Of a DNA stretch of 56,002 nt, positions 2,711 through 19,693 are shown piece by piece; the stretch's first letter is position 1, and every line of letters begins with the position of its first letter. Below the pieces are notes generated by a model. That model was not told where the DNA came from. It made no database searches and saw only the letters and a program-made list of their open reading frames with translations. Source of the DNA: Runella sp. (GTDB taxonomy: Bacteria; Bacteroidota; Bacteroidia; Cytophagales; Spirosomataceae); NCBI GenBank assembly GCA_023254175.1, contig JALQYJ010000125.1:1-56002 (forward strand), in the 5' to 3' direction. The position numbers were made by a program, and so were the translations under genes.

Positions 2711-4606
2711 ATGAAGAATTGGTGGTGCTGTTTTTGGGGACTCGTCTTGCCGATGATTGCCATGGGGCAAATTCGGCTGGAAGTGGTGTATCACGCGCCA
2801 TTTAAAACAGCAAACCAGCGGTTATTTTTGGCGAGTGACTTCAACAATTGGCAACCTGGTGATTCGAGTTTGGAGTTCAAAAAAGAGTCTTCAGGGTTAT
2901 ATTTTTTGAATCTATCCGATACCCTCACAAATTTCAAGTATAAGATAACGCAAGGGAGTTGGGGGTTAGTAGAGGGTGATAGCAGCGGTAAAAGTCGTCC
3001 AGATAGGGTATATTATCGTTTTTCTGAACAAAACCCGAAGCTAATCCAACTGAAGATTCAGGGATGGGAAGCCAGGGTAATGTACCGCTTTGTCATTAAG
3101 GAGATTCCCTCCAATACCCCCAAAGACGCGTCGATTTATATTTCAGGAAATTTCAACAATTGGCACGCAGGTGATGAAGATTTTCGGTTGAGAAAACAAG
3201 TAGATGGCACCTACCGCGTTACGGTTGCTTCTGATTTGCCAAGGTTAGAATATAAATTTACCCGAGGTGATTGGAACAGCGTGGAGGGCTATGAAAACGG
3301 GAAAACCCGCCCTAACCGAATTTTATACCGAGGTCAAATGATGAACAATGAAAATATTGAGGTAGCTATAGATAGTTGGGAAGATCTCTCGGGTACGTTT
3401 CGATCCATCTCCATCTATGATTTGTTGCTGTTGTTTTCTGCTTTTCAAAGCATTTTGTTGATTATTGCCATTACTTCAATGCAAGATTATAACCGACAGG
3501 CTAATCGCTGGTTGGTAGTATCGCTGGCATTCATGGCGATTATCGTAGCCATAAAAGTAGTAAGTGCCTACCGCGAAGTAGCCCAAGAATACACAAAACT
3601 CTTGCTTGTGCCTTATTTTGCATTGTTTCTGTATTCGCCCCTTTTCTACTTTTACCTCCAAAAACTTTTGTTTAAAATCCCCAAATTTCCACGGCATTGG
3701 TGGGGGCATTTTGTGCTACCAGGTATTCAACTTTTTGTATATCTTCCTCTGTTCTTCATGGAAAACAAACGCTTACAACTTAAAATTGTGAATCGTGAGC
3801 TTGACATTATTTGGCTATTTTGGGGCGCAGGTACGGTGGCGTTGTTTACCAATTTATATTATTGGCTGGTAAATTACCGAGCGATTCGTTCGTACCGAGC
3901 CTTAGCGGTCAATCAGTCTTCGTCAGAACATAATTTACAGTATTTATCCACTGTGCTTGGCTTGCAGTTGGTTTGTTTGATACTTTGGTTTTTTTCGGGT
4001 ATTTTATTTGGCATTGGGTACACGTTTGAAATTGAAACCAACACTCTTGTTTATAAGAGTATAGACACCATTTGGTTAGCGTTTTCAACCATTCCTTATT
4101 TCTTGGGGTATTTTGCCATCTACCAACCCGAAATTTTTAAAATACAGGCCAAGCCTCAACCCTTTTTGAAACCTACTGAGGAACCAACGGTTACTATTGC
4201 ATTGCACGATACACTAGCGCCCGTGTTGGAAAAAGAGGTAGATGCCCTAGAAAATTTGGGCGTATATAAGGCCAAACTCGAAACATTCATGCAGCAGCAT
4301 AAGCCTTACACCAATCCTGGATTGACGCTTAATGAACTGGCTCAAAAATTAAAGTTAGCTCCTCACTTGCTGTCAAAAATTATTAATGAAGGTTACAACA
4401 AAAATTTTTTTGACTTTGTCAATGAGTACCGAATCGAGGAATTTAAACAACGATTTGAAGACCCGCGCAACAAGCATTTTACCCTTTTGGCGATTGCCTT
4501 TGAAGTAGGTTTTAATTCAAAAACAGCTTTCAACCGCGCTTTCAAAAAAATGACGCAACAAACTCCACGAGAATACTTCTTTGAATCACGAATAGAAGAA
4601 GAATAA
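2711..4606 (+). CDS. Membrane-bound AraC-family regulator with two extracytoplasmic CBM20-like domains
   Basis: This appears to be a one-protein starch sensor and transcription factor. Residues 1-20 are a signal peptide. Residues 21-118 and 123-222 are two beta-sandwich domains of the CBM20/AMPK-glycogen-binding type, each with a FNNW motif and a YKxTxGxW...VEG...G...R signature. Seven hydrophobic segments follow at about 234-257, 266-287, 294-320, 331-350, 364-388, 410-437 and 450-474. The tail holds an AraC DNA-binding domain at 515-625 with helix-turn-helix motifs near 538-561 and 590-613. A cleaved leader plus seven helices puts the sugar-binding part in the periplasm and the DNA-binding part in the cytosol. 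It directly precedes the SusCD locus, so it is inferred to activate that locus when starch or maltooligosaccharide binds. The ligand is not shown by sequence. Confidence 0.85.
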   Translation: MKNWWCCFWGLVLPMIAMGQIRLEVVYHAPFKTANQRLFLASDFNNWQPGDSSLEFKKESSGLYFLNLSDTLTNFKYKITQGSWGLVEGDSSGKSRPDRVYYRFSEQNPKLIQLKIQGWEARVMYRFVIKEIPSNTPKDASIYISGNFNNWHAGDEDFRLRKQVDGTYRVTVASDLPRLEYKFTRGDWNSVEGYENGKTRPNRILYRGQMMNNENIEVAIDSWEDLSGTFRSISIYDLLLLFSAFQSILLIIAITSMQDYNRQANRWLVVSLAFMAIIVAIKVVSAYREVAQEYTKLLLVPYFALFLYSPLFYFYLQKLLFKIPKFPRHWWGHFVLPGIQLFVYLPLFFMENKRLQLKIVNRELDIIWLFWGAGTVALFTNLYYWLVNYRAIRSYRALAVNQSSSEHNLQYLSTVLGLQLVCLILWFFSGILFGIGYTFEIETNTLVYKSIDTIWLAFSTIPYFLGYFAIYQPEIFKIQAKPQPFLKPTEEPTVTIALHDTLAPVLEKEVDALENLGVYKAKLETFMQQHKPYTNPGLTLNELAQKLKLAPHLLSKIINEGYNKNFFDFVNEYRIEEFKQRFEDPRNKHFTLLAIAFEVGFNSKTAFNRAFKKMTQQTPREYFFESRIEEE

Positions 4607-4647
4607 ATGCTTTTTACCCCAATTATGGGTGCCATTTTAAGGCGTAG

Positions 4648-4684
4648 GACGTGCCACCTTCCAAAAGTGGTACGTCTTTTTTTT
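4648..4684 (+). terminator. Rho-independent terminator after the AraC regulator
   Basis: The 10-bp stem GACGTGCCAC/GTGGTACGTC has one G-T wobble, a 9-base loop and a run of eight T. It separates the regulator from the susC promoter, so susC needs its own start site. Confidence 0.8.
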
Positions 4685-4773
4685 GTAAGATTCTGATAAA
4701 TAGTTGTTTATAAAAAAAAGCAACTCTTTTCGCCATTATTGCAAAGTGGGACGACAAGCGGGGTTAAGTATGG

Positions 4774-4781
4774 TACTTTTG
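4774..4781 (+). promoter_or_regulatory. -7 element of the susC promoter
   Basis: TACTTTTG fits TAnnTTTG and is followed by GC. Transcription would begin near 4788, which argues for translation from 4861 and not from the in-frame ATA at 4792. There is no TTTG at the -33 position, as expected of a promoter that depends on an activator such as the neighbouring AraC protein. Confidence 0.5.
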
Positions 4782-4860
4782 CAAGAAGAAATTGATAAAA
4801 CATGATGTTTGCTCCATTTCAATCTTTCCAATTATCCAATTTAACTTACATCAAACCCCT

Positions 4861-7824
4861 ATGATGATTTCGATGTACAAAGTCCTTAGCCGAATGAAAG
4901 TTCGCCTAAATGTGATGATGTTGCTGTGGGCTTTTGTGTCCATATCAACCATGGCGCAGGATATCACTGTGTCAGGAAAAGTTCAAGAATCCAACGGCTC
5001 GGTGCTTCCTGGCGTGAGTGTGTTGGTGAAAGGAACCACACGTGGTACCCAAACGGATGCCGATGGTAACTTCAAAATTGCAGCGCCAAGCAGCGCAACG
5101 CTGGTATTTAGTTTTGTCGGAATGACAACGCAGGAAGTTGCCATCAACAACCGCACGCAGCTCTCTGTAACCTTGCAAAACGACAACAAACAGTTGGCTG
5201 AAGTGGTCGTGATTGGGTACGGAACGCAACGCAAAAAAGACCTAACGGGGTCTATTGCTACGATTACCACTGCCGACTTTAACAAAGGTAACATTGCCAC
5301 GCCCGACCAATTGGTAGCGGGCAAAGTAGCAGGGGTGCAGATTACCCCTAATGGCGGTGCGCCAGGCGCAGGAAGTACGATTCGTATTCGTGGTGGGGCA
5401 TCGTTGAATGCCAGCAATGACCCGCTCATCGTAATTGATGGGGTGCCTTTGGATAACACTACTATCAACGGCGCGGCAAATCCGTTGAGCTTAATTAACC
5501 CCAACGATATTGAGTCGTTTAACATCCTTAAAGATGCGTCAGCTACGGCTATTTATGGCTCGCGAGCGTCCAACGGGGTCATTATGATTACGACTAAAAA
5601 AGGGAAAAAAGGCGATGTGATGCGCGTAAACTTGAGCACACAAGCTTCTGTTGGACTCAAAACAGGGTTGGTAGATGTACTTTCGGGCGATGATTTTCGC
5701 GCACTGGTGAATCAATACGGTACCGCTACCCAAAAATCATTGTTAGGTACAGCAAACACCGATTGGCAAAGTGAAATTTATCGCGCAGCAGTTAGTTCGG
5801 ATAATAACTTGAGTATCACAGGGTCGTTCAAAAACACACCTTACCGTGTATCAGTAGGTTATACTAACCAAAACGGTATTTTGAAGAACTCAAACATGGG
5901 ACGTACTTCGGCTTCGGTGGGCTTGACCCCGATGCTTTTGGACAATCACCTTAAAATAGACATTAACGTCAAAGCTTCTACCATTAAAAACCGATTTGCC
6001 AACCAAGGTGCTATCGGTGCTGCTGCTGCTTTTGACCCTACTCAACCCATCTTTTCGGGTAAAGAAGCCTATGGAGGGTATTTTGAATGGGTAAATGCCG
6101 ATGGCAAACCTAATACCATTGCGACGCGTAACCCGCTCGGTTTGTTGAATTTGACGGACGACCGTTCGACGGTAAATCGTAGCATCGGCAATGCTCAATT
6201 TGATTATAAATTCCATTTCTTGCCGGAGTTACACGCCAATTTGAACGTCGGTTATGATGTGTCAAGAAGCGATGGTAAGAAAGTGATTCCAGCGTTGGCT
6301 GCTTCTAACTTTAGTAATGGTGGTGAAAAGACGGTGTATACGCAAGATCGTACCAACAAACTGTTGGATTTTTACCTTAACTACGTCAAAGACATTACCA
6401 AAAACACACGTCTGGACTTAATGGCGGGGTATTCTTACCAAGATTTTGTTAATTCTACAACGAGCATCACCAAAGACGAAGCTGAAACCAAAACGCGTAA
6501 CGATAGCCCCTACAAGACCCAAAATACATTGGTGTCGTTTTTCGGCCGTGCCAATTTGAACGTTCAAGACCGTTACTTGCTGACTTTTACCCTTCGTCGC
6601 GATGGGTCATCGCGTTTTGCCAAAGAAAACCGTTGGGGAACGTTCCCGTCGGCGGCTTTTGCGTGGAAAATCAACGAAATGGACTTCTTAAAAGGTTCTA
6701 ATGTGTTGTCAGATTTGAAACTACGCTTGGGTTACGGGGTGACAGGCCAACAGGATGTGGGCCAAAACTTCGCTTATTTGGCACGTTATACCCCAAGTAC
6801 AGCTACTGCACAACAGCTTTTGGGAACAAACTATTATACAACGCTCCGTGCTGAAGGATACAACGCTAGCATCAAATGGGAACAAACCATCACTCAAAAC
6901 GTCGGGTTAGATTTTGCTTTCAAAAAAGCTCGTTTATCGGGTAGCATCGACTACTACATCAAAAATACGTCTGACTTGTTGAATGTCGTTCCAGTGGCGG
7001 CAGGTACCAATCTTACCAACGAAATCTTGTCGAACGTAGGTTCTATCGAAAACAAAGGCTTAGAGTTGTTGTTGAACTACAATGCTATCAGCAAAGAAGA
7101 TTTCAACCTTGATTTAGGTTTTAATGCAACCTACAATGAAAACAAAATCACTAAGTTAACCTCTGCCAACGACCCTAACTATAAAGGTGTACTAGTGGGT
7201 GGAATTGCAGGTGGAGTAGGTAGTACGATTCAAATCCACTCGGTTGGCTACCCTGCTTCTTCGTTCTTCGTTGCTCAACAAGCATATGACGCTTCTGGCA
7301 AGCCAGTGGAAGGAGTGTACGTAGACCGCAATGGTGATGGCAAAATCACCGTTGACGATTACTATCACTACCAATCTCCCGCACCCCGTGTATTTATTGG
7401 TTTTAATGCCCAAGCTACCTACAAGAAATGGAGTGGAGGTTTTGTTCTTCGTGGCAACTTTGGTAATTACGTGTACAACAATATTCTGTCAACCAATGGG
7501 GTATTGCAAGCCTTCCAGGGGGCTAATAACTCTTTGGGCAACGTTGTACCAAATGTACTGACAACCTTGTTTGCTACGCCTCAGTATTTCTCAGATTACT
7601 ACATGCAAAACGGCTCATTTTTGCGAATGGACAACGCTTTTGCAGGCTATGATTTAGGAAATGCCTTTGGAGGAAAATCGACGGCACGTCTTTCTGCAAC
7701 CGTTCAAAACGTATTTGTGATTACAAAATATACAGGTCTTAACCCTGAAGTGAGTGGGGGAATTGACAATAATATTTATCCCATTCCACGCACGTTTACT
7801 CTTGGTTTAAACATCGGATTCTAA
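4861..7824 (+). CDS. susC: SusC-type TonB-dependent outer membrane transporter
   Basis: This is a 22-strand outer membrane channel that, capped by SusD, imports starch oligosaccharides using TonB energy. The 987-aa protein has a leader ending in STMAQ, a carboxypeptidase-regulatory-like domain (ITVSGKVQ to GNFKI), a plug with QLVAGKVAGVQI, the classic SusC segment NILKDASATAIYGSRASNGV, and a long barrel ending in an aromatic residue (LNIGF). The frame is open upstream to 4792, but the ATG at 4861 is preferred because the likely transcription start is near 4788. susD follows after 17 bases. Substrate specificity for starch is inferred from the GH13 enzymes and CBM-bearing regulator in the same locus. 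Confidence 0.95.
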   Translation: MMISMYKVLSRMKVRLNVMMLLWAFVSISTMAQDITVSGKVQESNGSVLPGVSVLVKGTTRGTQTDADGNFKIAAPSSATLVFSFVGMTTQEVAINNRTQLSVTLQNDNKQLAEVVVIGYGTQRKKDLTGSIATITTADFNKGNIATPDQLVAGKVAGVQITPNGGAPGAGSTIRIRGGASLNASNDPLIVIDGVPLDNTTINGAANPLSLINPNDIESFNILKDASATAIYGSRASNGVIMITTKKGKKGDVMRVNLSTQASVGLKTGLVDVLSGDDFRALVNQYGTATQKSLLGTANTDWQSEIYRAAVSSDNNLSITGSFKNTPYRVSVGYTNQNGILKNSNMGRTSASVGLTPMLLDNHLKIDINVKASTIKNRFANQGAIGAAAAFDPTQPIFSGKEAYGGYFEWVNADGKPNTIATRNPLGLLNLTDDRSTVNRSIGNAQFDYKFHFLPELHANLNVGYDVSRSDGKKVIPALAASNFSNGGEKTVYTQDRTNKLLDFYLNYVKDITKNTRLDLMAGYSYQDFVNSTTSITKDEAETKTRNDSPYKTQNTLVSFFGRANLNVQDRYLLTFTLRRDGSSRFAKENRWGTFPSAAFAWKINEMDFLKGSNVLSDLKLRLGYGVTGQQDVGQNFAYLARYTPSTATAQQLLGTNYYTTLRAEGYNASIKWEQTITQNVGLDFAFKKARLSGSIDYYIKNTSDLLNVVPVAAGTNLTNEILSNVGSIENKGLELLLNYNAISKEDFNLDLGFNATYNENKITKLTSANDPNYKGVLVGGIAGGVGSTIQIHSVGYPASSFFVAQQAYDASGKPVEGVYVDRNGDGKITVDDYYHYQSPAPRVFIGFNAQATYKKWSGGFVLRGNFGNYVYNNILSTNGVLQAFQGANNSLGNVVPNVLTTLFATPQYFSDYYMQNGSFLRMDNAFAGYDLGNAFGGKSTARLSATVQNVFVITKYTGLNPEVSGGIDNNIYPIPRTFTLGLNIGF

Positions 7825-7841: not shown

Positions 7842-9437
7842 ATGAAACATTTCATTTCTAAAAATACTGTACTCGGAGGAATCGTACTGGCCTTGACGAT
7901 GTCCTCTTGTATCAAAGACCTTGACCGTCAGCCGTTCAATGAGGTTACGTCTGCCACGGTGTACAACGACCCTGCGGCGTACAAACAAGTTGCGGCAAAA
8001 TTATACGCAGGTTTGATGTTGACGGGGCAGCAAGGCCCTGCGGGCGACGACCGTACCAAGGACATCAAAGGCATGGACGAAGGGTTTTCGAGTTATTTGC
8101 GTAACTATTGGTATTTGCAAGTAATCCCGACCGACGAAGCCGTAATTGCGTGGAGTGATGCAGGTTTGCCCGAAATTAATTACATGAAATGGTCGTCAAA
8201 TAACCCCTTCATTCGTGGATTTTACAACCGTGTATTCTACCAAATTGCATCTTGTAATGAGTTTATTCGCGAATCTAGCGATGCTAAATTAACCGAAAGA
8301 GGGGTTTCTGGGGCTATTTTGACTGAAACAAAAGCGCTTCGTGCTGAGGCTCGTTTCTTGCGCGCATTGAGCTACTGGCACGCCTTGGATTTATTTGGAG
8401 GAAATGTACCTTTTGTGACGGAGAATGACGTAGTTGGTTCGGCACCTCCAAAACAAACAAATGCGAAAGATTTGTTTGCGTATATCGAATCTGAATTAAA
8501 AGCCATTGACGGCGAGTTAGTTGACGCTCGTAAAAATGAATACGCTCGTGCTGATAAAGCAGCAGCTTGGATGTTGTTGGCAAAATTGTATCTCAACGCC
8601 GAAGCTCAAGGGCAAGGAAACCGTTATGCAGATGCCGCAACGTATGCTAAGAAAGTCATTGACGCGGGGTATGTACTTCATTCAAAATACGATGACTTGT
8701 TCAAAGCAGATAATCACAGTTCATCAGAAATTATTTGGGCGTTGGTTGCTGATGGAACTCGTAGCCAAACCTGGGGTGGAATGACTTTCTTGTGTCATGC
8801 GCCCGTGGGAGGTTCAATGCCCGCATCGGCCTATGGAATCGATGGTGGTTGGGGTGGTGTTCGTGTGACGCCGTCGTTTGTAAAGCTTTTTGCTGACCCA
8901 ACAGGTAAGACCGACAAACGTGCGATGTTTTATACCGATGGACAAAAACTTGAAATCAATGAGCTAAGCACATTTACAGACGGTTATGCCATGCCTAAGT
9001 TTAAAAACGTAACATCGGCGGGTAAAGTAGGAAGCAACCTAACTCACCCTGATACCGATTTTCCAATGTTCCGTTTGGCAGATGCCTATTTGATATATGC
9101 GGAGGCTGCTGCACGTGGGGCAGGAGATAAAGCCTTGGCGTTGGAGTATGTCAATAAAATCCGTACTCGTGCTTATGGAAGTGCCGCTGGTAATATCACT
9201 TCTTCAGAATTGACTCCCGATTTTGTGTTGGCTGAACGTGCGCGCGAATTATCGTGGGAGGGAAGCCGTCGTACCGACTTGATTCGCTATGGCAAGTTTA
9301 CTGGAGCTTCGTATTTGTGGGCGTGGAAAGGTGGCGTTAAAGACGGTGCTGGGGTTCAGGATTATTTGAAAATATTCCCACTTCCTTCGACGGACTTAAC
9401 GGCAAATCCAAACTTGGTTCAAAACACGGGGTATTAA
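7842..9437 (+). CDS. susD: SusD-type starch-binding outer membrane lipoprotein
   Basis: This is the surface lipoprotein lid of the SusC channel. The 531-aa protein has a lipoprotein signal with the lipobox cysteine at residue 23 (LTMSSC). The SusD N-terminal pattern follows (NEVTSATVYNDPAAYKQV), then TPR-like helices (TETKALRAEARFLRALSYWHALDLFGGNVPFV) and the C-terminal RagB/SusD region (LAERARELSWEGSRRTDLIRYG). It is of usual length. It sits 17 bases after susC, and the SusE-like gene starts about 20 bases after its stop, so the three form one operon. Starch as ligand is inferred from context. Confidence 0.95.
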   Translation: MKHFISKNTVLGGIVLALTMSSCIKDLDRQPFNEVTSATVYNDPAAYKQVAAKLYAGLMLTGQQGPAGDDRTKDIKGMDEGFSSYLRNYWYLQVIPTDEAVIAWSDAGLPEINYMKWSSNNPFIRGFYNRVFYQIASCNEFIRESSDAKLTERGVSGAILTETKALRAEARFLRALSYWHALDLFGGNVPFVTENDVVGSAPPKQTNAKDLFAYIESELKAIDGELVDARKNEYARADKAAAWMLLAKLYLNAEAQGQGNRYADAATYAKKVIDAGYVLHSKYDDLFKADNHSSSEIIWALVADGTRSQTWGGMTFLCHAPVGGSMPASAYGIDGGWGGVRVTPSFVKLFADPTGKTDKRAMFYTDGQKLEINELSTFTDGYAMPKFKNVTSAGKVGSNLTHPDTDFPMFRLADAYLIYAEAAARGAGDKALALEYVNKIRTRAYGSAAGNITSSELTPDFVLAERARELSWEGSRRTDLIRYGKFTGASYLWAWKGGVKDGAGVQDYLKIFPLPSTDLTANPNLVQNTGY

Positions 9438-9459
9438 TCTTCAAAAATTGAAAAGACAA

Positions 9460-10770
9460 ATGAAAAAGTGGTTTCATAAATGCTTATTCGCGGTCGTTGC
9501 GACGACGATGCTGGCCTCATGCGAAAAAGATGAAATAAAGGCCGTACTCAATTCGGGGGCGGTGCCTGTGGTGGCGGTATCGTCGCAAACAGTGGTGCTA
9601 ACCAAAGAAAATGCGGACAAAGATGCTCTCACGATTTCTTGGGCAAAACCTGATTACGGTTTTGATGCGCCTGCCAATTATACCATCTTGATTGATAAAA
9701 AAGGAGGTGATTTTGCCAACGGAGCTTCTATTACGACAGGAACGGAGTTGAAAAAGACGTTTAAAGTTTCTGAACTCAACCCGATTTTATTAAAACTTGG
9801 GTTGAAAGCAGCTACGGCTGGCGATATTGATATCAAAGTTCAGTCGTTTTTGGGTGGAAGTACGATACTTTCCTCGACAGTTATGTCGGTCAAAGCAACG
9901 CCTTACTTGGACAAGTTAGATCTTTCAACCAACTGGGGAGTGGTAGGAAGTGCAACTACCAACGGATGGAACGGCCCTGATATGCCTTTTTACAAATCAG
10001 ATAAAGCCAATGTGTACGTAGCGTATGTAGCTTTGATGGATGGTGAAATCAAATTCCGTCAAGACAATAAATGGGATGTTAATTTGGGTGATAACGGCGC
10101 CGATGGAACTCTTGAACCTGGAGGTGCCAACATCGTAGTTAAGAAAGGAAACTATAAAATTACGTTTGATGCAGGTGCTTCTAAATATACCATTGACAAA
10201 TTCTCGTGGGGAGTAGTTGGTAGCGCAACACCAAGCGGATGGAGTGCGCCAGACGTACCGTTCGTCTATGATCCATCCTCTGATCAGTGGCGTGCAATTG
10301 CCACCCTGAAAGACGGTGAGATTAAGTTCCGTCAGAATGAAGATTGGGCAGTAAATTATGGAGACAAAGGAGCCGACGGTACGCTCGAAGCAGGAGGCGA
10401 CAATATTGTCGTTAAAGCGGGCTTGTATTTGATTACCGTTGATTTCAAGTCGTTGAAATACACCATTGTTCCTTTCAAAGTATGGGGAGTGGTAGGAAGC
10501 GCCGCACCGAATGGCTGGAATGGACCTGATACGAAATTTACACCTGATTTTGGCAATGAAGGAATTTGGAAATTAAATGGTATCAAATTAGTCGATGGAG
10601 AAATCAAGTTCCGCCAAAACGACGATTGGGCCGTAAACTACGGTGACGATAAAGCCGATGGTGTGATGGAAGCGGGGGGCGCAAACATTGCCGTAAAAGC
10701 AGGGACTTACGACATTGTCCTCGACTTTACGGTGATGGCAAAACCAACGTATAAATTGACGAAAAAATAA
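9460..10770 (+). CDS. susE: SusE/SusF-type surface lipoprotein with three starch-binding repeats
   Basis: The protein is predicted to sit on the cell surface and hold starch near the SusCD pore. The 436-aa product has a lipobox Cys21 (MLASC), a SusE N-terminal immunoglobulin-like domain to about residue 145, and three tandem domains starting with WGVVGSA at residues 159, 250 and 342. Each repeat, about 91 residues long, carries WGVVGSA...GW..P, then GEIKFRQ, W.VN.GD and ADG..E.GG.NI. The start is placed at the ATG at 9460; an in-frame TTG at 9448 would only add four residues before a good signal peptide. The three-repeat layout resembles SusF of Bacteroides more than two-repeat SusE, so the E/F name is loose. 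Confidence 0.85.
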   Translation: MKKWFHKCLFAVVATTMLASCEKDEIKAVLNSGAVPVVAVSSQTVVLTKENADKDALTISWAKPDYGFDAPANYTILIDKKGGDFANGASITTGTELKKTFKVSELNPILLKLGLKAATAGDIDIKVQSFLGGSTILSSTVMSVKATPYLDKLDLSTNWGVVGSATTNGWNGPDMPFYKSDKANVYVAYVALMDGEIKFRQDNKWDVNLGDNGADGTLEPGGANIVVKKGNYKITFDAGASKYTIDKFSWGVVGSATPSGWSAPDVPFVYDPSSDQWRAIATLKDGEIKFRQNEDWAVNYGDKGADGTLEAGGDNIVVKAGLYLITVDFKSLKYTIVPFKVWGVVGSAAPNGWNGPDTKFTPDFGNEGIWKLNGIKLVDGEIKFRQNDDWAVNYGDDKADGVMEAGGANIAVKAGTYDIVLDFTVMAKPTYKLTKK

Positions 10771-10861: not shown

Positions 10862-11854
10862 ATGCAGTTATATTTATCCACGGTTATATGCTTAAAGCCA
10901 GTGAGTTATCTTAAAATTTATACCCGAATCCTTTTGCACTACGGCTTACTTTTGATAATTAGTATTCAGGTGAGTAGGGCGCAAGACAAATTGCCGACGC
11001 CATCCTCTGGGACCGTAAAGCGATTTGAAAATTTTGCTTCAAAATACGTTGCCGCTCGTAACGTAGATGTATGGCTACCTGCCAACTACCAAGCTGATCG
11101 TAAGTATGCAGTGCTTTACATGCACGACGGCCAAATGCTCTACGATTCGACTACCTCGTGGAACCACCAAGAGTGGGGAGTGGATGAGACAATTGAACAG
11201 TTGCGGAAAAACAAAACGACGAAATCGTGCATTGTGGTTGGGATTTGGAACGTAGGACAAGGGCGTCATGCGGATTATTTCCCTCAAAAACCATTTCAAG
11301 CGTTGTCGCCTGATCAAAAACAGTTTGTGATTGAACAACTACAAAAAATGGGGCGAACAGATAAGGTCTTTCAACCCGTTTCAGATAATTACCTACGCTT
11401 TATCGTAGAGGAGCTGAAACCGTTTATTGACCGTACGTTTTCTACCCATAAAAATGCTGAAAATACCTTTATCGCAGGTTCAAGCATGGGCGGGCTTATT
11501 TCCATGTATGCTTTTTGCGAATATCCCCATGTTTTTGGGCGAGCCGCCTGTTTGTCAACGCATTGGCCAGGGATTTTTTCGTTGGATAATAATCCCATTC
11601 CTGAGGCTTTTATCAATTATTTGAATACCCATTTACCGCCACCTCAGAGCGGACATAAACTGTACTTTGACTACGGTACCGCTACCTTAGATGCGCTCTA
11701 TGAACCCACTCAATTAAGGGTTGATACCATTTTAAGATCCAAAAAATACCAAGCGAAGCATTGGAAAACATTAAAATTTGAAGGTGCCGAGCATTCCGAA
11801 AAGGCATGGAGTAAGCGTTTAGCAATCCCATTTGCCTTTTTGTTACAAAACTAA
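10862..11854 (+). CDS. Exported alpha/beta-hydrolase, esterase D type
   Basis: This is a putative esterase of the PF00756 family (330 aa). The N-terminal hydrophobic stretch (residues 22-40, ending SRAQ) is a signal sequence. The nucleophile elbow is GSSMGG, and a likely acid (DYGT) and the catalytic His (EGAEHSE) follow at the expected places, with VLYMHDGQ near the oxyanion region. Relatives cut ester bonds on sugars or occur beside starch genes, sometimes fused to CBM20-like domains like those of the regulator here. The true substrate is unknown. The ATG at 10862 gives a long n-region before the hydrophobic core; a later start is possible. Confidence 0.8.
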   Translation: MQLYLSTVICLKPVSYLKIYTRILLHYGLLLIISIQVSRAQDKLPTPSSGTVKRFENFASKYVAARNVDVWLPANYQADRKYAVLYMHDGQMLYDSTTSWNHQEWGVDETIEQLRKNKTTKSCIVVGIWNVGQGRHADYFPQKPFQALSPDQKQFVIEQLQKMGRTDKVFQPVSDNYLRFIVEELKPFIDRTFSTHKNAENTFIAGSSMGGLISMYAFCEYPHVFGRAACLSTHWPGIFSLDNNPIPEAFINYLNTHLPPPQSGHKLYFDYGTATLDALYEPTQLRVDTILRSKKYQAKHWKTLKFEGAEHSEKAWSKRLAIPFAFLLQN

Positions 11855-11902: not shown

Positions 11903-13741
11903 ATGAAAAGACATCATCTTTTAGCTTTTGTGCTACTTTCTTTTGCCAGCATGCTACACGCTCAGCGCGTCGAACCTGCCTTCTGGTGGGTCGGGATGAA
12001 AGAGCCACGTTTACAACTGCTTATTCACCAAAAAGACATTGGCACTACTGAGCCTCAAATGACGTATGCAGGGGTGAAATTGGCGAAAGTGATACGTGTG
12101 AAAAGTCCCAATTATCTTTTTTTAGATTTAACCATCGCGACAACTGCCAAAGCGGGTAGTTTTCCAATTACCTTTAAAAAGAACGGCAAAACGGTAGCGA
12201 CTTATTCGTATGAATTAAAAAATCGGGAACCCAATTCTGCCAATCGACAAGGGTTTACCTCGGCCGATGCCATGTATCTCATTGCACCCGATCGCTTTGC
12301 AAATGGTAATCCTGAGAATGACAACGTCGTTGGTATGACGGATTTGGCGGATAGAAAGGGAAAAGATAAACGGCATGGAGGTGATATTCAGGGAATTATC
12401 GAACACTTAGATTATATTCAAAAGCTAGGATTTTCGTCGCTTTGGATTTGCCCTTTACAGGAAAATAACCAAAATATGGGCTCTTACCACGGCTATGCCA
12501 TGACTGATTTGTACAAAGTTGACGCACGTTTTGGCAGCAATGAAGAGTACCGAAAACTGTCAAAAGAAGCCCAAAAACGAGGTATAAAGCTGGTGATTGA
12601 TTTGGTTCCTAATCACTGTGGTTCAGAACATTGGTGGATGAAAGATTTACCAACCGACGACTGGGTGAATTTTCAAGGAGACCCCAAAATGACTCATCAT
12701 GCTCGTGAAAGTGTCCAAGACCCCTACGCCAGCGAATACGACAAAGAACTACATGCCAGTGGTTGGTTTGTTCCAAGTATGCCTGATTTGAATCAGAAAA
12801 ACCCATTGATGGCCAATTATTTGATTCAAAATTCGCTTTGGTGGATAGAATACGCTGATTTACAAGGTGTTCGAGTAGATACGTATCCCTATTCAGATAA
12901 AGATTTTATGGCGCGTTGGTCACAGCGAATGATACAAGAATATCCCAACCTGAGTATGGTTGGTGAAGAGTGGTCAGCTAGCCCTGCGATTGTAAGCTTT
13001 TGGCAAAAAGGGAAAGTAAATGCCAATAGTTATGTGTCATCAATGCCAAGTATGTTTGATTTTCCACTTCAAATGGCCTTGATTGATGCCCTCAATGAGG
13101 ATGATAAAGTGTACAACACTGGCCTTCCCAAGTTATATCAAGTGCTTTCGCAAGATTTTTTATATGCTAATCCAGACAAATTGGTCATAATGGCGGATAA
13201 TCATGATATTACCCGTTTTTATACTCAAATCCATGAAAACTTTGATTTGTGGAAAATGGGAATTGCTTTTCTTTGCACAACTAGGGGTATCCCCCAAGTA
13301 TACTACGGTACTGAAGTTCTTATGACAAGCCCAGTAGTTAAAAATGATGATGGGATTAGGAAAGAGATGCCAGGGGGATGGGCAGACCATACAGTGAACG
13401 CCTTTACAGAAAAAGGATTGTCGCCTCAGCAGTTGGAGGCGAAACAATACCTGACAAGATTTTTTCAGTGGAGAAAAACCAATTCGGCGGTTCAATCGGG
13501 GAAATTAAAACACTTTGCGGCTCGTGATGGCCTGTATGTTTATTTTAGGTATAACGATTCGCAAAAAGTGATGGTGGTGATGAACAAAAATAAAGAGCCG
13601 TTAAAACTGGATTTAAGCAAATATTCAGAGATTTTGAGCGGAGTTTTGTCCGTAAAAAATGTAGTGACGGGAGAAATTAGTACGTTGGCGAATGGTTTGA
13701 CTATTAATGGCACATCTGCGTTAGTATTGGAGATAAAATAA
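11903..13741 (+). CDS. GH13 neopullulanase/cyclomaltodextrinase-like amylase (SusA-like)
   Basis: This enzyme is predicted to cut alpha-1,4 bonds of imported maltooligosaccharides in the periplasm. The 612-aa protein has a leader ending MLHAQ and an N-terminal cyclomaltodextrinase-type beta domain (about 22-110). The GH13 barrel holds all conserved regions: DLVPNH (233-238), GVRVDTYPY with nucleophile Asp326, VGEEW with acid/base Glu355, and ADNHD with Asp435. A C-terminal beta domain follows. It has no lipobox and no T9SS tail, so a soluble periplasmic location is inferred. The gene lies 48 bases after the esterase and 8 bases before the second amylase. Confidence 0.92.
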   Translation: MKRHHLLAFVLLSFASMLHAQRVEPAFWWVGMKEPRLQLLIHQKDIGTTEPQMTYAGVKLAKVIRVKSPNYLFLDLTIATTAKAGSFPITFKKNGKTVATYSYELKNREPNSANRQGFTSADAMYLIAPDRFANGNPENDNVVGMTDLADRKGKDKRHGGDIQGIIEHLDYIQKLGFSSLWICPLQENNQNMGSYHGYAMTDLYKVDARFGSNEEYRKLSKEAQKRGIKLVIDLVPNHCGSEHWWMKDLPTDDWVNFQGDPKMTHHARESVQDPYASEYDKELHASGWFVPSMPDLNQKNPLMANYLIQNSLWWIEYADLQGVRVDTYPYSDKDFMARWSQRMIQEYPNLSMVGEEWSASPAIVSFWQKGKVNANSYVSSMPSMFDFPLQMALIDALNEDDKVYNTGLPKLYQVLSQDFLYANPDKLVIMADNHDITRFYTQIHENFDLWKMGIAFLCTTRGIPQVYYGTEVLMTSPVVKNDDGIRKEMPGGWADHTVNAFTEKGLSPQQLEAKQYLTRFFQWRKTNSAVQSGKLKHFAARDGLYVYFRYNDSQKVMVVMNKNKEPLKLDLSKYSEILSGVLSVKNVVTGEISTLANGLTINGTSALVLEIK

Positions 13742-13749
13742 ATTTTTGT

Positions 13750-16533
13750 ATGAAAAAACTCATTTCTATTTTTCTTTGGCTGTTAGTGAGTCAATGGGTT
13801 TGGGGGCAGGCATTGGTGGTAAATCCAGAATTTCCAACGGCAGACGGAGAAGTTACGTTGACCTTTGACCTAACCCAAGCCAAAGACAGTCGTAAAGCCG
13901 CGTTAATGAATCAAGCCTCGGGCTTGTATATCTGGGCGTGGGGAGGGTCTGATGCCTCCAACCGAACGGCCGAGTTTGGGCCTGCGGGCCAATCTAGTTT
14001 TTCACAACCCTATGCGCCTGGATTGTTGACGAGGGTAAGTGATAATGTTTGGGCGATCAAAATCACACCTTCTAAATACTTAAGTGTACCCACGGGGAAA
14101 ACGTTACGATGGATGGGGGTTTTGGTAAAAAATGCCAACGGCTCGGGTCAAACCGAGGACTTTTTGTTCAACTTTTATACTTCAAATCAGTTGTTTGTAC
14201 GATTTTCAACTCCGACTGAGAAAACACTTTTTGTGGATGCTAATTCTTCGCTACGGGTGAGGGCGAGAGCTTCTATCTTGTCTCAATTGACGCTTACGCT
14301 CGACGGAACAACCATAGCTTCGGCTATAGACACGGCCATTACGACCACGATAGCCGTCGGAAATACGCCCAATCAACGAAGAACAGTGAAAATTGTGGCA
14401 AGTGCCAACAACCAAGAAGTTACCGATGAGTTTTCGTTTACTGTTAGCCCTACGCCTGCGGTGGTGGCTCTTCCTGCTGGACTGAAAAATGGCATTAATT
14501 ATACTTCTTCTACGTCGGCAATATTGGTGCTATTTGCTCCTAATAAGAAGTTTATTTACGTTACGGGTGATTTTAACAACTGGGATACCCGAACGGACTT
14601 TTTGATGAATAAAACTCCCGATGGACAAACATATTGGTTGGAAATCAAAAACTTAATTTCTCAAAAAGAATATGCGTTTCAGTACTTAGTTGACGGCGTA
14701 ACGCCGATTAGTGACCCGTATAGCGAGAAGATTTTGGATGCCTTTAACGATAAATTTATCCCTGCAACTAACTATCCTAACCTGATGCCCTTCCCCGCGA
14801 AAGCCTTGGGAAATAGCGCGTCGGTACTCCAAACTGCCCAAGTTCCTTATGTTTGGAAAACCACCAATTTCAAACGCCCCGCCAACGAAGATTTGGTGAT
14901 TTATGAGCTGCTTGTGCGTGATTTTGTAGATAGCCGCTGGTACAAAACCGTGGGAGATTCACTCAATTACCTCAAGAAACTCGGTGTCAATGCCATTGAG
15001 TTAATGCCTGTTATGGAGTTTGCGGGCAACGATTCTTGGGGATATAATCCCATTTTTCATGCGGCACCTGACAAAGCATACGGTACGCCCGATGATTTGA
15101 AGGCATTCATTGACAGGTGTCATGCCAACGGCATTGCGGTGATTTTGGATATGGTGCTTAATCAAGCCGATTATGAGTTTCCGTACGTAAAAATGTACTG
15201 GGAGGGCAACCGCCCGTCGACTGATAGTCCGATGTTTAATATTCAAGCAACGCATCCGTTTAGCGTGTTTTTTGATTTTAACCACGAATCAGCCGCCACC
15301 AAATCGTATGTGGAGCGGGTCAATGAATTTTGGCTGAAAGAATACCGATTTGATGGCTATCGTTTTGACTTATCTAAAGGATTTACCCAGGTGAATTCGG
15401 GAAATGACGTGGCTTTTTGGGGGCGTTACGATGCCAGCCGAATTGCGATTTGGAAGCGAATTTATGACCAAATTCGTAAAACTGACCCAACGGCCTACGT
15501 CATTTTAGAACATTTTGCGGATGACAACGAAGAGGCGGAACTGACCAATTATGGAATGATGGTATGGGATAATCAAAACGGAGCTTTTCGTGAAGCAGTA
15601 AAAACAGGAAAAGGGAATTTTAACCGACTTTCGTGGAAAAACCACGCGGGTTTTCAAAAAGCAGCGACCATTGGTTATATGGAAAGCCACGATGAAGAGC
15701 GAATCGTGTATGACGCCATCACAAATGGTAGCGCGGAAGTAAAAAGCGTAGCTACGGCCATCGAACGCACCAAGGCCGCTGCCGCGTTGTTTTTCTTAAC
15801 TCCAGGCCCAAAATTACTATGGCAATTTGGTGAATTGGGCTACGACGTGTCGATTGACCAAAACGGTCGGACGGGGGCTAAACCCATTCGTTGGGAGTAT
15901 TTGCGGGACAACAGACGCCTGCAACTCTACAATGTGTTTTCGGAGCTGATTCGTTTTAAAACGACGCAGGCCGTGACCAAAACGACGGATTTTAGCCTGC
16001 AAACGACAGAAATGATTAAACAGTTGATTCTCAATACAACGACGATGAAAGTGCAGGTTATTGCCAACTTTGGACTTACTGACCAAGTCGTTGCGCTCCC
16101 GGTAGGCCGTTGGTTCGACTTTTTTTCGGGCGACGAAATTACGGTAACTTCTTCTTTACCGCAGTACGCGTTTCGGGCGGGGCAGTTTCACGTACTGACT
16201 TCCGAAAAAGTAGCCGTTACGTCGCAAAATACCGTTTCGTGGAAAATTCAAACGATTACCTCGGCAGAATCTTCGTCAAAAGAGACAGCACTGCAATTGT
16301 CGCCTAATCCTACCCAAGATTGGTTAAATGTGGAGTGGGAGAGTGCCTATCGCGGGGAAGTAAGAATTGAAATTTTGGATATGACAGGACGGGCGGTTCG
16401 CTATTTTGTGCCCCAAAAATTGACCAACCAAATGCAGCAGCGTATTTCGGTGAAAGAAGTGCCTATGGGTACTTATTTCTTGAAAATAGCGGAAGGGTCG
16501 GTCTCCCAAACCCAACGCTGGATAAAACAATAA
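13750..16533 (+). CDS. Large GH13 alpha-amylase-family enzyme with T9SS type A sorting domain
   Basis: This appears to be the secreted or surface starch-degrading enzyme. The 927-aa protein has a signal peptide (WGQ at 18-20), two beta domains (about 21-235), and a CBM48/isoamylase-N-like domain (about 250-330, with GDFNNWDT). The GH13 barrel spans about 381-720: nucleophile Asp540 (YRFDLSKGF), acid/base Glu587 (ILEHFAD), Asp648 (ESHDEE). Region I reads DMVLNQ at 467-472, with Gln where most GH13 enzymes have His. Residues 848-927 form a T9SS sorting domain (LSPNPTQDWLNVEW to the C-terminus), so it should pass the outer membrane and be anchored or released outside. It may do the surface job of SusG, which is a lipoprotein in Bacteroides. 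Confidence 0.9.
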   Translation: MKKLISIFLWLLVSQWVWGQALVVNPEFPTADGEVTLTFDLTQAKDSRKAALMNQASGLYIWAWGGSDASNRTAEFGPAGQSSFSQPYAPGLLTRVSDNVWAIKITPSKYLSVPTGKTLRWMGVLVKNANGSGQTEDFLFNFYTSNQLFVRFSTPTEKTLFVDANSSLRVRARASILSQLTLTLDGTTIASAIDTAITTTIAVGNTPNQRRTVKIVASANNQEVTDEFSFTVSPTPAVVALPAGLKNGINYTSSTSAILVLFAPNKKFIYVTGDFNNWDTRTDFLMNKTPDGQTYWLEIKNLISQKEYAFQYLVDGVTPISDPYSEKILDAFNDKFIPATNYPNLMPFPAKALGNSASVLQTAQVPYVWKTTNFKRPANEDLVIYELLVRDFVDSRWYKTVGDSLNYLKKLGVNAIELMPVMEFAGNDSWGYNPIFHAAPDKAYGTPDDLKAFIDRCHANGIAVILDMVLNQADYEFPYVKMYWEGNRPSTDSPMFNIQATHPFSVFFDFNHESAATKSYVERVNEFWLKEYRFDGYRFDLSKGFTQVNSGNDVAFWGRYDASRIAIWKRIYDQIRKTDPTAYVILEHFADDNEEAELTNYGMMVWDNQNGAFREAVKTGKGNFNRLSWKNHAGFQKAATIGYMESHDEERIVYDAITNGSAEVKSVATAIERTKAAAALFFLTPGPKLLWQFGELGYDVSIDQNGRTGAKPIRWEYLRDNRRLQLYNVFSELIRFKTTQAVTKTTDFSLQTTEMIKQLILNTTTMKVQVIANFGLTDQVVALPVGRWFDFFSGDEITVTSSLPQYAFRAGQFHVLTSEKVAVTSQNTVSWKIQTITSAESSSKETALQLSPNPTQDWLNVEWESAYRGEVRIEILDMTGRAVRYFVPQKLTNQMQQRISVKEVPMGTYFLKIAEGSVSQTQRWIKQ

Positions 16534-16534: not shown

Positions 16535-18532
16535 TTAAAGAGCTTCGATGTACAGCGCATTGCCGTCGGCGGTGCGCTGTATTTTTTTGCCGTTGATAGT
16601 CACCGTAAACTGTACTGGTTCAAAGGCTTCGGCAAACGTATCTTGGAATAAAAGCAACCGGTTGCCCGTTTTAGGATTTCGCCACACCTGCAACCACGGT
16701 TGGTTAAACTTAAATGCCCGGGCAAATTCCCCCGTATCGTTTTGCCAAGTGGCCTTTTGGAATTTTTGAGTAGAACGCTGGTAGTCGAAAGCATAACTTT
16801 CGCGTACTTGACTGCCATCCAAAATAAGTTGGTGCTTCGCAAAAAGCTCGTGCGCTTGCACCATCGCTGCTACGCCGAGGGCATCTTTTCCCATGTAATC
16901 TTCGCCTAAAGTGGGGCAAGCGGGCTGGTCGGGGCCTTGGTAGTCATAGACAAAAAAGCCTCCTGTGTTTTGTGAAACACAAGACAAATTACCGTTGATT
17001 TTGGCGTAACGAAGGGTTTGGTACGGGTCGTACGATTGGCCAAATATCCAGTAGTTGGTATAAAAAACGCGGGGATTGCACAAGTGAACAAAAACCGCAT
17101 CGCGCACCAAATTCATGGGGTACATCACTCGATTGTCCAGTTGTCGAATGTAGCCCTTAGTGCCTCGTCCCACCTTGAAACGTCGGGTGTGGCTTCGGCG
17201 TGCATCGGAAGGCTTGTCTTCGTATGGCCAGAAAAAGTTGATGAATTTTACCGTTGGAGGTGCCGTGAGTGACTTGATATTGAGCATATCGAGCGTGCGT
17301 AAGTACCAATTGACGGGCGCTTTCCAAACGTGGGCAGGTTGGTCGGTGGCATCACTGGTATTCACTGTACTGCTGGTATATCCGAAACCCGTCATAAGCA
17401 CTACTGGTGAAGGAAGCTGCACTTGCTGAATGTCTTCGGGGTGCTGGTGAAGGGTTAAGTAATCATCTATTTTTTTCTTATCTGCACTCCAATTATCATT
17501 GGCGTAGCCATCAAGTTTGAAATTTTTACCCTGAAACGTGAAGGTCAGCGGATCGCCAATCCACGAAAAAAAGAGCTTTCTGTGTTTTTTGTAGATTTTA
17601 TCCGATAACTCGTACATGGTTTTTCGAAAAGAAGGGTCGTTCATGTCCCACTGCCAACCGTCAGCGGCAGGGTTAGCAGGCTCAAAATCGACGGCAAAGG
17701 TAGACGAAGGCAGTCGTTGGGCCAACCAATCGGCAGCCTGGTCGAGCTGACGGGCATCAAATTGGGTAATGCCTCGACGGTTTTGGGCACTACTGTAGTT
17801 CATTAGTTCTGCCACTTCACCTGCGTACAAAAGTTTAAAACGGTCTTCGCCGATGTTCCAGCCTACTTTTCGCAAATTAGCCACGGGTTCATCGAGTGGT
17901 TTTGATTCCGAACCGTATTTTTTTTGAGGAGGAAGTTGAAAAACAGGCGTTTGTTTAAAAATCTTACTATCTCCTACGGGGCCATTGGTTGGCCACAGGG
18001 GTTGGGTATAAGCCAAGGCAGGCGAAGCTTGTTGTAAGGAGTCTTTTACCCAAAATATCACTTCTGAGATGGACGAATACTTAGTCTGTCCCGCCACAGT
18101 ATTCGTTTCGGAGGTGAGCCACGCTTCCGAATTGATGTTGTTGATTTCGGCAGTATATTTTACCAAATGAATCCAACGAGAAGGTTGAATTGGCAAGTCG
18201 CTGAGGCGTCGGGCGTCGGTGGTATTGACGCTACCATTGAGGGCATAATAGGTGATTCTACCTTTCTCTGGTTTAGCCTCATCGACGAGGTAGAGCCGTT
18301 GGTCATTGCGCCTAACAACGCGCAGTTGAAGCTGCTGGTCTTCGTAGTTTTTTGGGTCGGGTTCGTACTCAAAATAAACGATGGCAGCTTGTGAACGTGG
18401 TAATTCGGGCAGGAGAGGCGCAGAAGACGTAATGACAGGCTCAGGAGAACTAAATAGGTTATTTCTTTGATAATAAGCCACTAAGCTTATAACCGCTGCG
18501 AGCGTAATCCCTATTTTAGCCATACGTTTCAT
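16535..18532 (-). CDS. Exported 665-aa protein of unknown function, TIM-barrel glycosidase-like segment
   Basis: I do not recognise a named family. Residues 7-22 are a hydrophobic anchor or uncleaved leader. The middle holds AVDFEPANPAADGWQW and LFFSWIGDPLTF, patterns reminiscent of beta-strand ends in TIM-barrel glycoside hydrolases with acidic residues, but I cannot assign catalysis. The C-terminal part (VQFTVTINGKKI) looks like a beta domain. The ATG overlaps the MerR stop as ATGA, so translation is coupled to the regulator. Its stop lies one base from the stop of the converging T9SS amylase, with no terminator between. A carbohydrate role is an inference from the neighbour and fold hints only. 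Confidence 0.7.
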   Translation of the reverse strand: MKRMAKIGITLAAVISLVAYYQRNNLFSSPEPVITSSAPLLPELPRSQAAIVYFEYEPDPKNYEDQQLQLRVVRRNDQRLYLVDEAKPEKGRITYYALNGSVNTTDARRLSDLPIQPSRWIHLVKYTAEINNINSEAWLTSETNTVAGQTKYSSISEVIFWVKDSLQQASPALAYTQPLWPTNGPVGDSKIFKQTPVFQLPPQKKYGSESKPLDEPVANLRKVGWNIGEDRFKLLYAGEVAELMNYSSAQNRRGITQFDARQLDQAADWLAQRLPSSTFAVDFEPANPAADGWQWDMNDPSFRKTMYELSDKIYKKHRKLFFSWIGDPLTFTFQGKNFKLDGYANDNWSADKKKIDDYLTLHQHPEDIQQVQLPSPVVLMTGFGYTSSTVNTSDATDQPAHVWKAPVNWYLRTLDMLNIKSLTAPPTVKFINFFWPYEDKPSDARRSHTRRFKVGRGTKGYIRQLDNRVMYPMNLVRDAVFVHLCNPRVFYTNYWIFGQSYDPYQTLRYAKINGNLSCVSQNTGGFFVYDYQGPDQPACPTLGEDYMGKDALGVAAMVQAHELFAKHQLILDGSQVRESYAFDYQRSTQKFQKATWQNDTGEFARAFKFNQPWLQVWRNPKTGNRLLLFQDTFAEAFEPVQFTVTINGKKIQRTADGNALYIEAL

Positions 18533-18903
18533 GTTAATACCTCTTTCAAGTTTTCCAAGTACGTTTTTACCTTTTCTAACTGTTCGATGACCCTGTTTAT
18601 TTTATTTCGCTGACTTCTGCCTGATTCTATCAACTGACGAGCAGCGGCCAATTGGTGCCCTTTGTATTCGACTAAATACACGATTTCGTCCAAAAGCTCA
18701 ATGTCGCCTCGGTTGTAAATGCGGTCGCCACCGCGTTTTTCGGGGCGTAACATGGGGAATTGAGTTTCCCAGTAACGTAACTTTGAGGTATTTTCAAAAC
18801 CATAACGTGCGGCTACCTCGTTGATGTCGGAGATTAGCTTGGGCTCGGGATAAACGGGGCGTTCTCCCTTGTTTGGAAGCTTTTTCGACTTAGTTATTGC
18901 CAT
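18529..18903 (-). CDS. MerR-family transcriptional regulator
   Basis: The 124-aa protein has one MerR winged-helix domain (about 22-95): INEVAARYGFENTSKLRYWETQFP, then RIYNRGDIELLDEIVYLV and a short C-terminal coiled coil (INRVIEQLEKVKTYLENLK) for dimerisation. It lacks the cysteine-rich metal site of MerR proper and any large effector domain, and belongs to the short heme- and metal-free type common in Bacteroidota. It overlaps the 215-aa gene upstream by 14 bases and the 665-aa gene downstream by 4 bases, so it is the middle gene of a tight operon and may control it. Confidence 0.9.
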   Translation of the reverse strand: MAITKSKKLPNKGERPVYPEPKLISDINEVAARYGFENTSKLRYWETQFPMLRPEKRGGDRIYNRGDIELLDEIVYLVEYKGHQLAAARQLIESGRSQRNKINRVIEQLEKVKTYLENLKEVLT

Positions 18904-19537
18904 AATACTTCAAATAAGTGACCAATCGTTCAAAATTACTAAGCTCAGTTTCACTGCCAAACTTTGTAAGGTAATTTCGGTAAGTGGTCTCTAATTGGGC
19001 ATAACGCGGATTATCGTTGAGTTTGGCGGCAATCATCCCTTTGTAGCAGCGATGAACCTGATTATAAAGGTGTTTGGAAGGCTTCTGCGCTTGACCGTTT
19101 AAAATCTGGTCAATATCAGCAAGTCTCGTAACAGAATTTAAAAACCCGAAACCTGAAAGATTCATAAATTCCATGATGGAATCACAGGCATCGTTGAGAT
19201 CTTCGTCGTTTTGGATTTTATACCGAAAGTACTTTACGTTGTTGTAGTTGCCCGTCGAAATGATAAGGGTATTGACATCGGCTCGAAAATCTATGAGGTT
19301 GACATTCAAAAATTGCTGGGCAATCTGCTCAATTTGGTCATTGCGACATCCGATGTGCACTTCTACCCAGGCATCACGTTCTTTTTCGTATTCTGACACC
19401 GAAAAAATGACGTTGACAAACCCCGAAGATGTACTTCTCCGAAACTGTTTTTTATCCATCAACAAGTGAAATTCTGCTGATTCAAAAAAATCGTAAAGGG
19501 CATAATACAACTTAGCTTCGGTGGTTTTAATACTCAT
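18890..19537 (-). CDS. Conserved hypothetical protein (215 aa), first gene of the MerR operon
   Basis: I do not recognise this protein. It is predicted to be cytosolic, with no leader or membrane helix. The N-terminal half (about 1-115) is alternating strand/helix with FVNVIFSVSEYEKERDAWVE; the C-terminal half is helical (YNQVHRCYKGMIAAKL, LETTYRNYLTKFGSE). It starts at the ATG at 19537 and its last 14 bases overlap merR. The tight coupling to a MerR gene is the only functional clue. Confidence 0.75.
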   Translation of the reverse strand: MSIKTTEAKLYYALYDFFESAEFHLLMDKKQFRRSTSSGFVNVIFSVSEYEKERDAWVEVHIGCRNDQIEQIAQQFLNVNLIDFRADVNTLIISTGNYNNVKYFRYKIQNDEDLNDACDSIMEFMNLSGFGFLNSVTRLADIDQILNGQAQKPSKHLYNQVHRCYKGMIAAKLNDNPRYAQLETTYRNYLTKFGSETELSNFERLVTYLKYYGNN

Positions 19538-19693
19538 AGATAGAATAGTTTAAACGATAACCATTTCCTCACGGAACAAGTTTACGGTTTTATTAAAACT
19601 ATCCAAACGTGTTTTTGGGGCTAAAAGTACAATGGCTATAGATTATTTAAAGCTAGCCATTGAAAAAAATGGCATTAATTAAGGCCAATGCTG

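Follow-up and report, generated by a model that had tools for sequence, protein, structure and literature searches.

The window, by which we mean the whole stretch of 56,002 nucleotides of Runella sp. DNA that was analysed, carries a gene encoding a membrane-bound AraC-type regulator, hereafter SR, followed by a starch operon in the order susC-susD-susE-esterase-GH13-GH13 (Table 1). The position directly before SusCD and two GH13 genes, as given in a preliminary description of this DNA, was thus correct. The SR reading frame was open throughout, with many stops on its reverse strand, and no Rfam match was found between positions 2600 and 5000. The called susC ORF begins with a TTG codon about 10 bases after a TAnnTTTG box; because several SusC relatives align from residue 24 or later, the ATG at position 4861 is the likelier start.

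Table 1. Coordinates of the regulator gene, the candidate regulatory elements and the starch operon in the window.
Feature	Position	Strand	Remarks
SR, membrane-bound AraC-type regulator	2711..4606	+	631 aa, ATG start
SR signal peptide	2711..2770	+	residues 1-20
SR glucan-binding-like domain 1	2768..3076	+	residues ~20-122; W47/K78/W84
SR glucan-binding-like domain 2	3077..3388	+	residues ~123-226; W151/K182/W188/N202
SR seven-helix membrane region	3392..4144	+	residues 228-478; no Pfam family
SR AraC-type HTH_18 domain	4307..4579	+	about residues 533-623
Distal inverted repeat of the half-site	4648..4676	+	T run follows
Proximal half-site AAAGTGGGACGAC, candidate SR binding site	4743..4755	+	
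TACTTTTG, match to the Bacteroidota -7 box TAnnTTTG	4774..4781	+	
SusC-type TonB-dependent transporter	4792..7824	+	ORF as called
SusD, starch type	7842..9437	+	NF033071 E 7e-123, 411 bits, below model cut-off 725
SusE/SusF-like outer membrane lipoprotein	9448..10770	+	
PF00756-type esterase	10862..11854	+	
GH13 with cyclomaltodextrinase N- and C-terminal domains	11903..13741	+	
GH13 with CBM48-like domain and type 9 secretion tail	13750..16533	+	CBM48-like domain below Pfam cut-off

When hydrophobicity was averaged over an alignment of 20 sequences (the window protein and 19 relatives), a hydrophobic stretch was seen at residues 3-21 of the leader, as were seven further segments at residues 239-257, 267-285, 297-315, 332-350, 366-384, 415-433, and 453-471, with loop charges consistent with an N-out/C-in topology. 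In an alignment of 75 rows (the window protein and 74 of the 75 relatives fetched), 99% of the 74 rows not gapped at position 20 had Q at that position, and because this residue is nearly invariant, the mature chain probably starts near Q20. The two domains that follow were 32% identical within the window protein and matched each other at 99.9% probability (E 1e-35) in a profile-profile comparison, on account of which they likely arose by duplication. Between the seven segments and the HTH_18 domain lies a variable linker. HTH_18 matched residues 543-622 (E 1.4e-13; 51.4 bits for a curated cut-off of 33.6) and HTH_AraC reached 29.5 bits (cut-off 26.6), a C-terminal pair that places SR with the AraC/XylS-type regulators, and the HTH was present in all 75 aligned rows. 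Pfam scans of SR and of 20 relatives matched no 7TMR-DISM domain, although a distant relation to these receptors is possible. The leader, two tandem domains, seven hydrophobic segments, and AraC domain that the preliminary description had assigned to a single chain were confirmed, and the protein, which joins a predicted sensor, a DNA-binding output, and membrane helices, has the layout of a membrane-bound one-component regulator.

The two N-terminal domains had been described as CBM20-like. When SR and 20 relatives were scanned, every Pfam carbohydrate-binding family, CBM_48 and AMPK1_CBM included, stayed below its cut-off, and the best matches of SR below the cut-offs were X25_BaPul_like (E 0.11, 13 vs. 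27 bits) and CBM53 (E 0.18). Profile comparisons upheld their glucan-binding-like character, but a CBM20 identity was rejected, with no CBM20 Pfam match and weak fold matches at best; judged from sequence, the domains are nearer to the CBM48/AMPK type, to the X25 pullulanase type, and to the domain found at the N-terminus of PF00756 esterases. When compared with solved structures, a domain 1 profile of 18 sequences matched the alpha-amylase 8dl1 (E 0.00022) and, at best with E 0.06, AMPK beta, and a profile of 61 domains, including 13 from esterases, matched 8dl1 (E 0.0023) and AMPK beta1 (E 0.0074). The domain 2 profile alone gave three weak matches, to a branching enzyme and amylases (E >= 0.047). 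Resemblance of the ectodomain to solved CBMs is weak at this level. With hhalign, the domain profile matched the CBM48-like region in the GH13 enzyme of this operon at 96% probability over 46 columns, as against 0.6% for a SusE domain used as negative control.

In rat AMPK beta1, residues W100, K126, and W133 are described as contacting beta-cyclodextrin and as being required for glycogen binding (PMC2642990, PMC4032982). The FNNW, YK, and GxW motifs of SR aligned with these three residues in the 61-domain profile alignment; in the 18-sequence alignment of domain 1 with AMPK, both tryptophans aligned and the lysine did not. These contact-type positions were conserved in domain 1 (W 69/69, K 69/69, W 69/70) and in domain 2 (W 75/75, K 75/75, W 74/75) of the aligned rows. 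Domain 2 was present in 75 of 75 rows and domain 1 was absent from six, which did not form a single clade in the tree. N202 of domain 2, kept in 75/75 rows, may be the counterpart of AMPK N150, a position that the alignments stop short of.

An AlphaFold prediction of full-length SR from three sequences reached a pLDDT of 36, and that of domain 2 from six rows gave a poor model (pLDDT 62). When this domain 2 model was submitted to Foldseek, 33 of the 50 rows listed were starch-binding or starch-active proteins, among them beta-amylase, STBD1, CGTase, pullulanase, and branching enzymes; the best E was 0.047, with none below 0.001 among these 50 rows, and the others included a type 9 secretion plug protein, SpyCEP, and fungal lectins. 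The fold search is suggestive only.

The ectodomain family was also found at the N-terminus of at least 14 esterase-like proteins (L007 and 13 further loci), and the five bearing an SR-type domain that were scanned with Pfam were all PF00756 esterases. In one esterase (L116), this domain exceeded the cut-off of the Pfam X25 pullulanase domain (31.3 vs. 27 bits), which counts for a starch-binding reading of SR; the label CBM-like is used here because of this match and of the profile comparisons. Another esterase with an SR-type domain (L103) carries a secretion tail according to Pfam.

Relatives of SR were searched in 222 genomes of the family with a profile of domain 2 and the membrane region (E <= 1e-25). 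They were found in 73 genomes, so that the architecture is more than a product of chance, and domain 2 lay within the match in 72 of them, the copy of G002 being cut by a contig end. Named relatives were those of Runella defluvii (86% identity) and Runella limosa (84%). In a set of 395 genomes of the phylum, in which at most five candidates per genome were scored and copies may thus have been missed, the fused form was seen outside the family in two genomes (G047 and G387) of the same order and, within the family, in the window's own genome and in G020; the remaining matches listed were to the domain alone or to the membrane part alone. The SR copies formed one clade against CBM-less 7TM-AraC proteins (support 0.96, midpoint root).

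The gene neighbourhood was analysed at 75 SR loci (20 + 55, two of them from G175) of 7-20 kb each, the window excluded and some loci being cut by contig ends. A SusC (>=45% identity) was encoded near SR at 59 loci, SusD at 58, GH13 at 51, and SusC or GH13 at 65. The susC gene was next to SR on the same strand at 42 loci and divergent at 6. Near 22 control loci encoding CBM-less 7TM-AraC proteins in related genomes, SusC, SusD, or GH13 was found in no case. Among the ten SR loci without SusC or GH13, five (in G031, G104, G175, G192, and G187) belong to genomes in which the starch SusC is encoded elsewhere, with a copy of the site described below before susC or its operon, and in two (L155 and L176) the SusC next to SR is more divergent or is cut; no starch SusC was found for the other three (L055, L173, and L180). 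By genome, both SR and a starch-type SusD (E <= 1e-120) were present in 66 of the 222, SR alone in 7, SusD alone in 6, and neither in 143 (Fisher 7e-41, a value that treats related genomes as independent, with no phylogeny correction). A gene encoding a protein of ~915 aa located 5' of SR in some genera was considered and set aside as DNA gyrase/topoisomerase A (L054).

In an alternative reading, SR would control the starch PUL, but its ectodomain would be an E-set domain of structural function that esterases also have, the signal being sensed elsewhere, such as in a pocket of the seven helices, through the state of the membrane, or by protein contacts. The presence of the domain on PF00756 esterases, the lack of a Pfam CBM match above cut-off in SR, and the loss of domain 1 in a few rows are in line with such a reading, as are the many CBM-less 7TM-AraC proteins, which must sense something else. 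Moreover, in three genomes of genus g47 a CBM-less AraC protein of 375 aa, which has hydrophobic segments and resembles SR over its last 117 residues only (the HTH part), is encoded near the starch SusCD (L252, L259, and L260); a glucan-binding ectodomain is thus not a general need, which counts against SR as a starch sensor. However, the W/K/W triad is kept family-wide in both copies of the domain, and SR is tied to the starch PUL whereas the 22 CBM-less controls have no PUL nearby. We regard a purely structural ectodomain as unlikely and favour one that would bind starch fragments.

The upstream regions of susC were read in the window and at 11 other loci, and a common word, AAAGTGGnnCGA, was found. 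It is represented in the window by AAAGTGGGACGAC and is followed there by TACTTTTG, which fits TAnnTTTG, a sequence that we take to be the consensus of the Bacteroidota -7 box. A composite motif was then defined as AAAGTGGnnCGA, with one mismatch allowed, 19 or 20 bp, and TAnnTTTG. This motif, which is probably the operator of SR, was present at 53 of the 75 SR loci, namely at 10 of the 11 read beforehand and at 43 of the 64 unread ones, many of which are closely related to each other or to the read loci; at this threshold it was absent from the other 22. The gene following the motif was on the same strand in 53/53 cases, at a distance of 11-408 bp, and encoded SusC (41), GH53 (11), or GH13 (1). 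One of the 11 GH53 proteins (371-387 aa) was confirmed by Pfam and the others were 54-75% identical to it. A single match, inside an ORF, was obtained in the 22 control loci. Scans for the bare half-site with one mismatch in the window's own genome were uninformative (28 matches vs. 24 for the reversed control), and a sigma-70 scan of positions 4500-4900 found nothing. It was also observed that a gene of the GH53 family (beta-1,4-galactanase) heads the starch operon in several genera, including at L056, L245, and L176, behind the same operator.

When the exact pattern was searched in the 222 genomes with a spacing of 14-22 bp, 35 sites were found in 34 genomes, and two with the reversed control. 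Each of the 32 sites with a spacing of 19 or 20 bp belonged to an SR genome and preceded a starch-PUL gene; the three others had a spacing of 16-17 bp, two lying inside an ORF (in the SR-less G154 and G162) and the third, in G126, having no starch gene beside it. Four of the 32 properly spaced sites were located apart from SR. Three were on another contig than SR, directly before susC-susD-susE-GH13 (G104), before susC (G175), and before GH53-susC (G022), and the fourth was 52 kb from SR, before a GH13 gene (G164). In G104, SR (L141) has no adjoining PUL while the unlinked operon has the site, and linkage alone thus does not explain the motif. The unlinked PUL of G031 has a site with one mismatch, and the unlinked susC genes of G192 and G187 are preceded by a variant, AAGGCGG, with the inverted repeat changed alike to AAGCGG, a coordinated change that is as expected if one protein reads both elements.

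This inverted repeat of the half-site lies upstream of the proximal site. Of the 61 upstream regions that contain a proximal site, 17 had it in a strict form (8/10 pairs, 7/10 identities), whereas 20 draws of random windows gave 0.05 on average, and in these 17 strictest cases its right arm was 76-94 bp from the proximal site. A laxer form (6 pairs, 6 identities, 60-105 bp upstream) was found in 41/61, with a random mean of 1.5 and at most 4. Helical phasing of the two sites was considered and rejected: the distances in the 17 strictest cases, 76-84 and 90-94, are not clean turns. The Runella repeat, which folds as RNA (-17.6 kcal/mol, z -3.0) and is followed by eight T, might instead be the terminator of the SR gene and nothing else. 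We judge this unlikely, since the repeat has no T run in other genera (L046, L048, and L051) and also occurs before susC genes that are not preceded by an SR gene (L249, L257, and L258), and since a terminator scan of positions 4500-4900 found none. In Runella, a repeat that serves as a regulatory element may double as the terminator of the SR gene.

Five of the six genomes with a starch SusD and without SR (6 loci) had no site at up to two mismatches. The sixth, G005, an assembly of 570 contigs, has a starch SusCD and a perfect motif with no SR detected, as would be the case if the cis-element belonged to a different starch-gene regulator and SR were linked to these genes for another reason. 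By pattern matching, SR is indistinguishable from any other regulator that acts on this promoter. This possibility is nevertheless improbable, as 32 of 32 properly spaced exact sites were in SR genomes, four of them apart from SR, and as the sites were missing from the other five SR-negative genomes. At four loci of genus g47, L250 (G097), L252 (G101), L259 (G103), and L260 (G098), susC is preceded by an ECF sigma/FecR pair, and the operator site was absent from all four; G103 and G098 carry SR elsewhere, although their SusCD has the ECF/FecR pair. The starch SusCD of g47 has apparently moved to ECF/FecR control. Among the SR-negative genomes scanned with Pfam, the pair was found in G097 and G101, but the neighbour of susC in G222 encodes a fatty acid desaturase, so that a regulator swap may be confined to some of these genomes. 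At four second SusCD loci of genus g2 no site was found, and at one of them (L261) a hybrid two-component gene adjoins.

Taken together, these comparisons make it likely that SR, as a one-component regulator in the inner membrane, activates the starch PUL; it would sense imported malto-oligosaccharides and act at the susC promoter. The two periplasmic CBM48/AMPK-type domains would bind malto-oligosaccharides imported by SusCD, and the seven-helix region would relay this binding to the AraC domain in the cytoplasm. SR would then contact the half-site AAAGTGGnnCGA, which, because its end sits 19-20 bp before TAnnTTTG, would overlap the -33 region, as for class II activators. The distal inverted repeat, mostly 76-94 bp upstream, would act together with the proximal site, possibly by looping or dimerisation, and RNA polymerase would be recruited to the susC-susD-susE-esterase-GH13-GH13 operon. 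As a seven-helix protein with a cytoplasmic HTH is expected to sit in the inner membrane, its sensor would face the periplasm and meet imported malto-oligosaccharides; by analogy with the periplasmic binding of maltose by SusR, the signal is likely the imported ligand and not extracellular polysaccharide. The proposal of a one-chain membrane regulator with a glucan-binding-like ectodomain, tied to a starch PUL, was thus supported by linkage and co-occurrence, whereas its binding of polysaccharide outside was not retained. A repressor leaving its operator once starch fragments bind would suit a proximal site that abuts the promoter and an inverted repeat like that of a classical operator, but it is very improbable, as the spacing, in agreement with class II activation, puts the site over the -33 region and not the -7 box, and as AraC-type regulators are mostly activators.

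Several known systems share part of this organisation. SusR of Bacteroides thetaiotaomicron (BT3705) is described as a membrane regulator of the starch sus locus that binds maltose in the periplasm, with predicted sites that are direct repeats, their centres 67 or 77 bp apart, and with a DNA-binding domain bearing no significant similarity to other known factors (PMC3878776). As described there, SusR and SR have in common a periplasmic sensor, a cytoplasmic DNA-binding end, and a starch locus, and the spacing of SusR sites is comparable with that between the SR half-sites. Unlike SusR, SR has an AraC HTH_18 domain, a seven-helix region, and CBM48/AMPK-type domains, and, going by the description of SusR, its HTH_18 sets it apart from the SusR type of DNA binding. 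The HTCS of Bacteroidota (e.g., at L261) resemble SR in having a periplasmic sugar sensor and an HTH_18 output in one chain, often encoded beside SusCD, but the HisKA, HATPase_c, and receiver domains were all absent from SR in a Pfam scan. With the glycogen-binding domain (CBM48) of AMPK beta, the SR domains share the aligned FNNW, K, and GxW contact positions; they differ in being secreted, bacterial, in tandem, and fused to a membrane transcription factor, and the sequence similarity is weak. The CBM-less 7TM-AraC proteins of Bacteroidota (about 370-450 aa) have a membrane and HTH_18 core like that of SR (about 30% identity), but no ectodomain and, near the 22 tested, no starch PUL. Yet another one-chain AraC layout, with TPR repeats and HTH_18 in proteins of 597-674 aa, was noticed in related genomes (L066, L067, and L068).

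Membrane-bound AraC regulators with 6-7 predicted TM helices have been described in Saccharophagus degradans (e.g., locus 2491), where they are encoded beside polysaccharide enzyme genes and were proposed to sense polysaccharide in a cellulose/xylan context (PMC2386152). They are like SR in their AraC domain, predicted helices, and polysaccharide-gene neighbours, and the layout that had been called distinctive is, in its general form of a 6-7-helix membrane AraC protein, thus not new. Unlike for SR, the part of that description available to us mentions neither a carbohydrate-binding ectodomain nor an operator (PMC2386152). In the open-licence literature, we found no paper on a fusion of glucan-binding domain, 7TM region, and AraC domain or on its operator; what is new here is the candidate operator, probably that of SR.

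The PUL regulators that we found described are mostly from gut Bacteroides, for which SusR, HTCS, and ECF/anti-sigma are the types named (PMC3878776). With SR, a different bacterial family is provided with a regulator family for its starch locus, together with a likely ligand and a candidate operator of exact sequence. Tentatively, and with less confidence than in its role as an activator, SR might be a receptor-like factor in which AMPK-type glycogen-sensing domains, mounted on a seven-helix core, switch a promoter directly from the membrane via the distal repeat and the half-site 76-94 bp apart; it would then represent a fourth class of starch-PUL control beside the three named above, with g47 having moved to ECF/FecR. 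If the regulation proposed here is right, a membrane-anchored AraC protein would read a sugar outside the membrane without a kinase or sigma-factor relay, and the starch-responsive promoter could be used as a tool.

Elsewhere in the window, four of the ORFs at positions 16535-24617 (665, 215, 422, and 568 aa), downstream of the operon, had no Pfam match at E 1e-5. A 179-aa piece of a RecF/SMC-like ATPase (1280-1819) is flanked by the genes for methylmalonyl-CoA mutase and thymidylate synthase. The minus strand carries an SMC-type ORF of 563 aa at 27585-29276.
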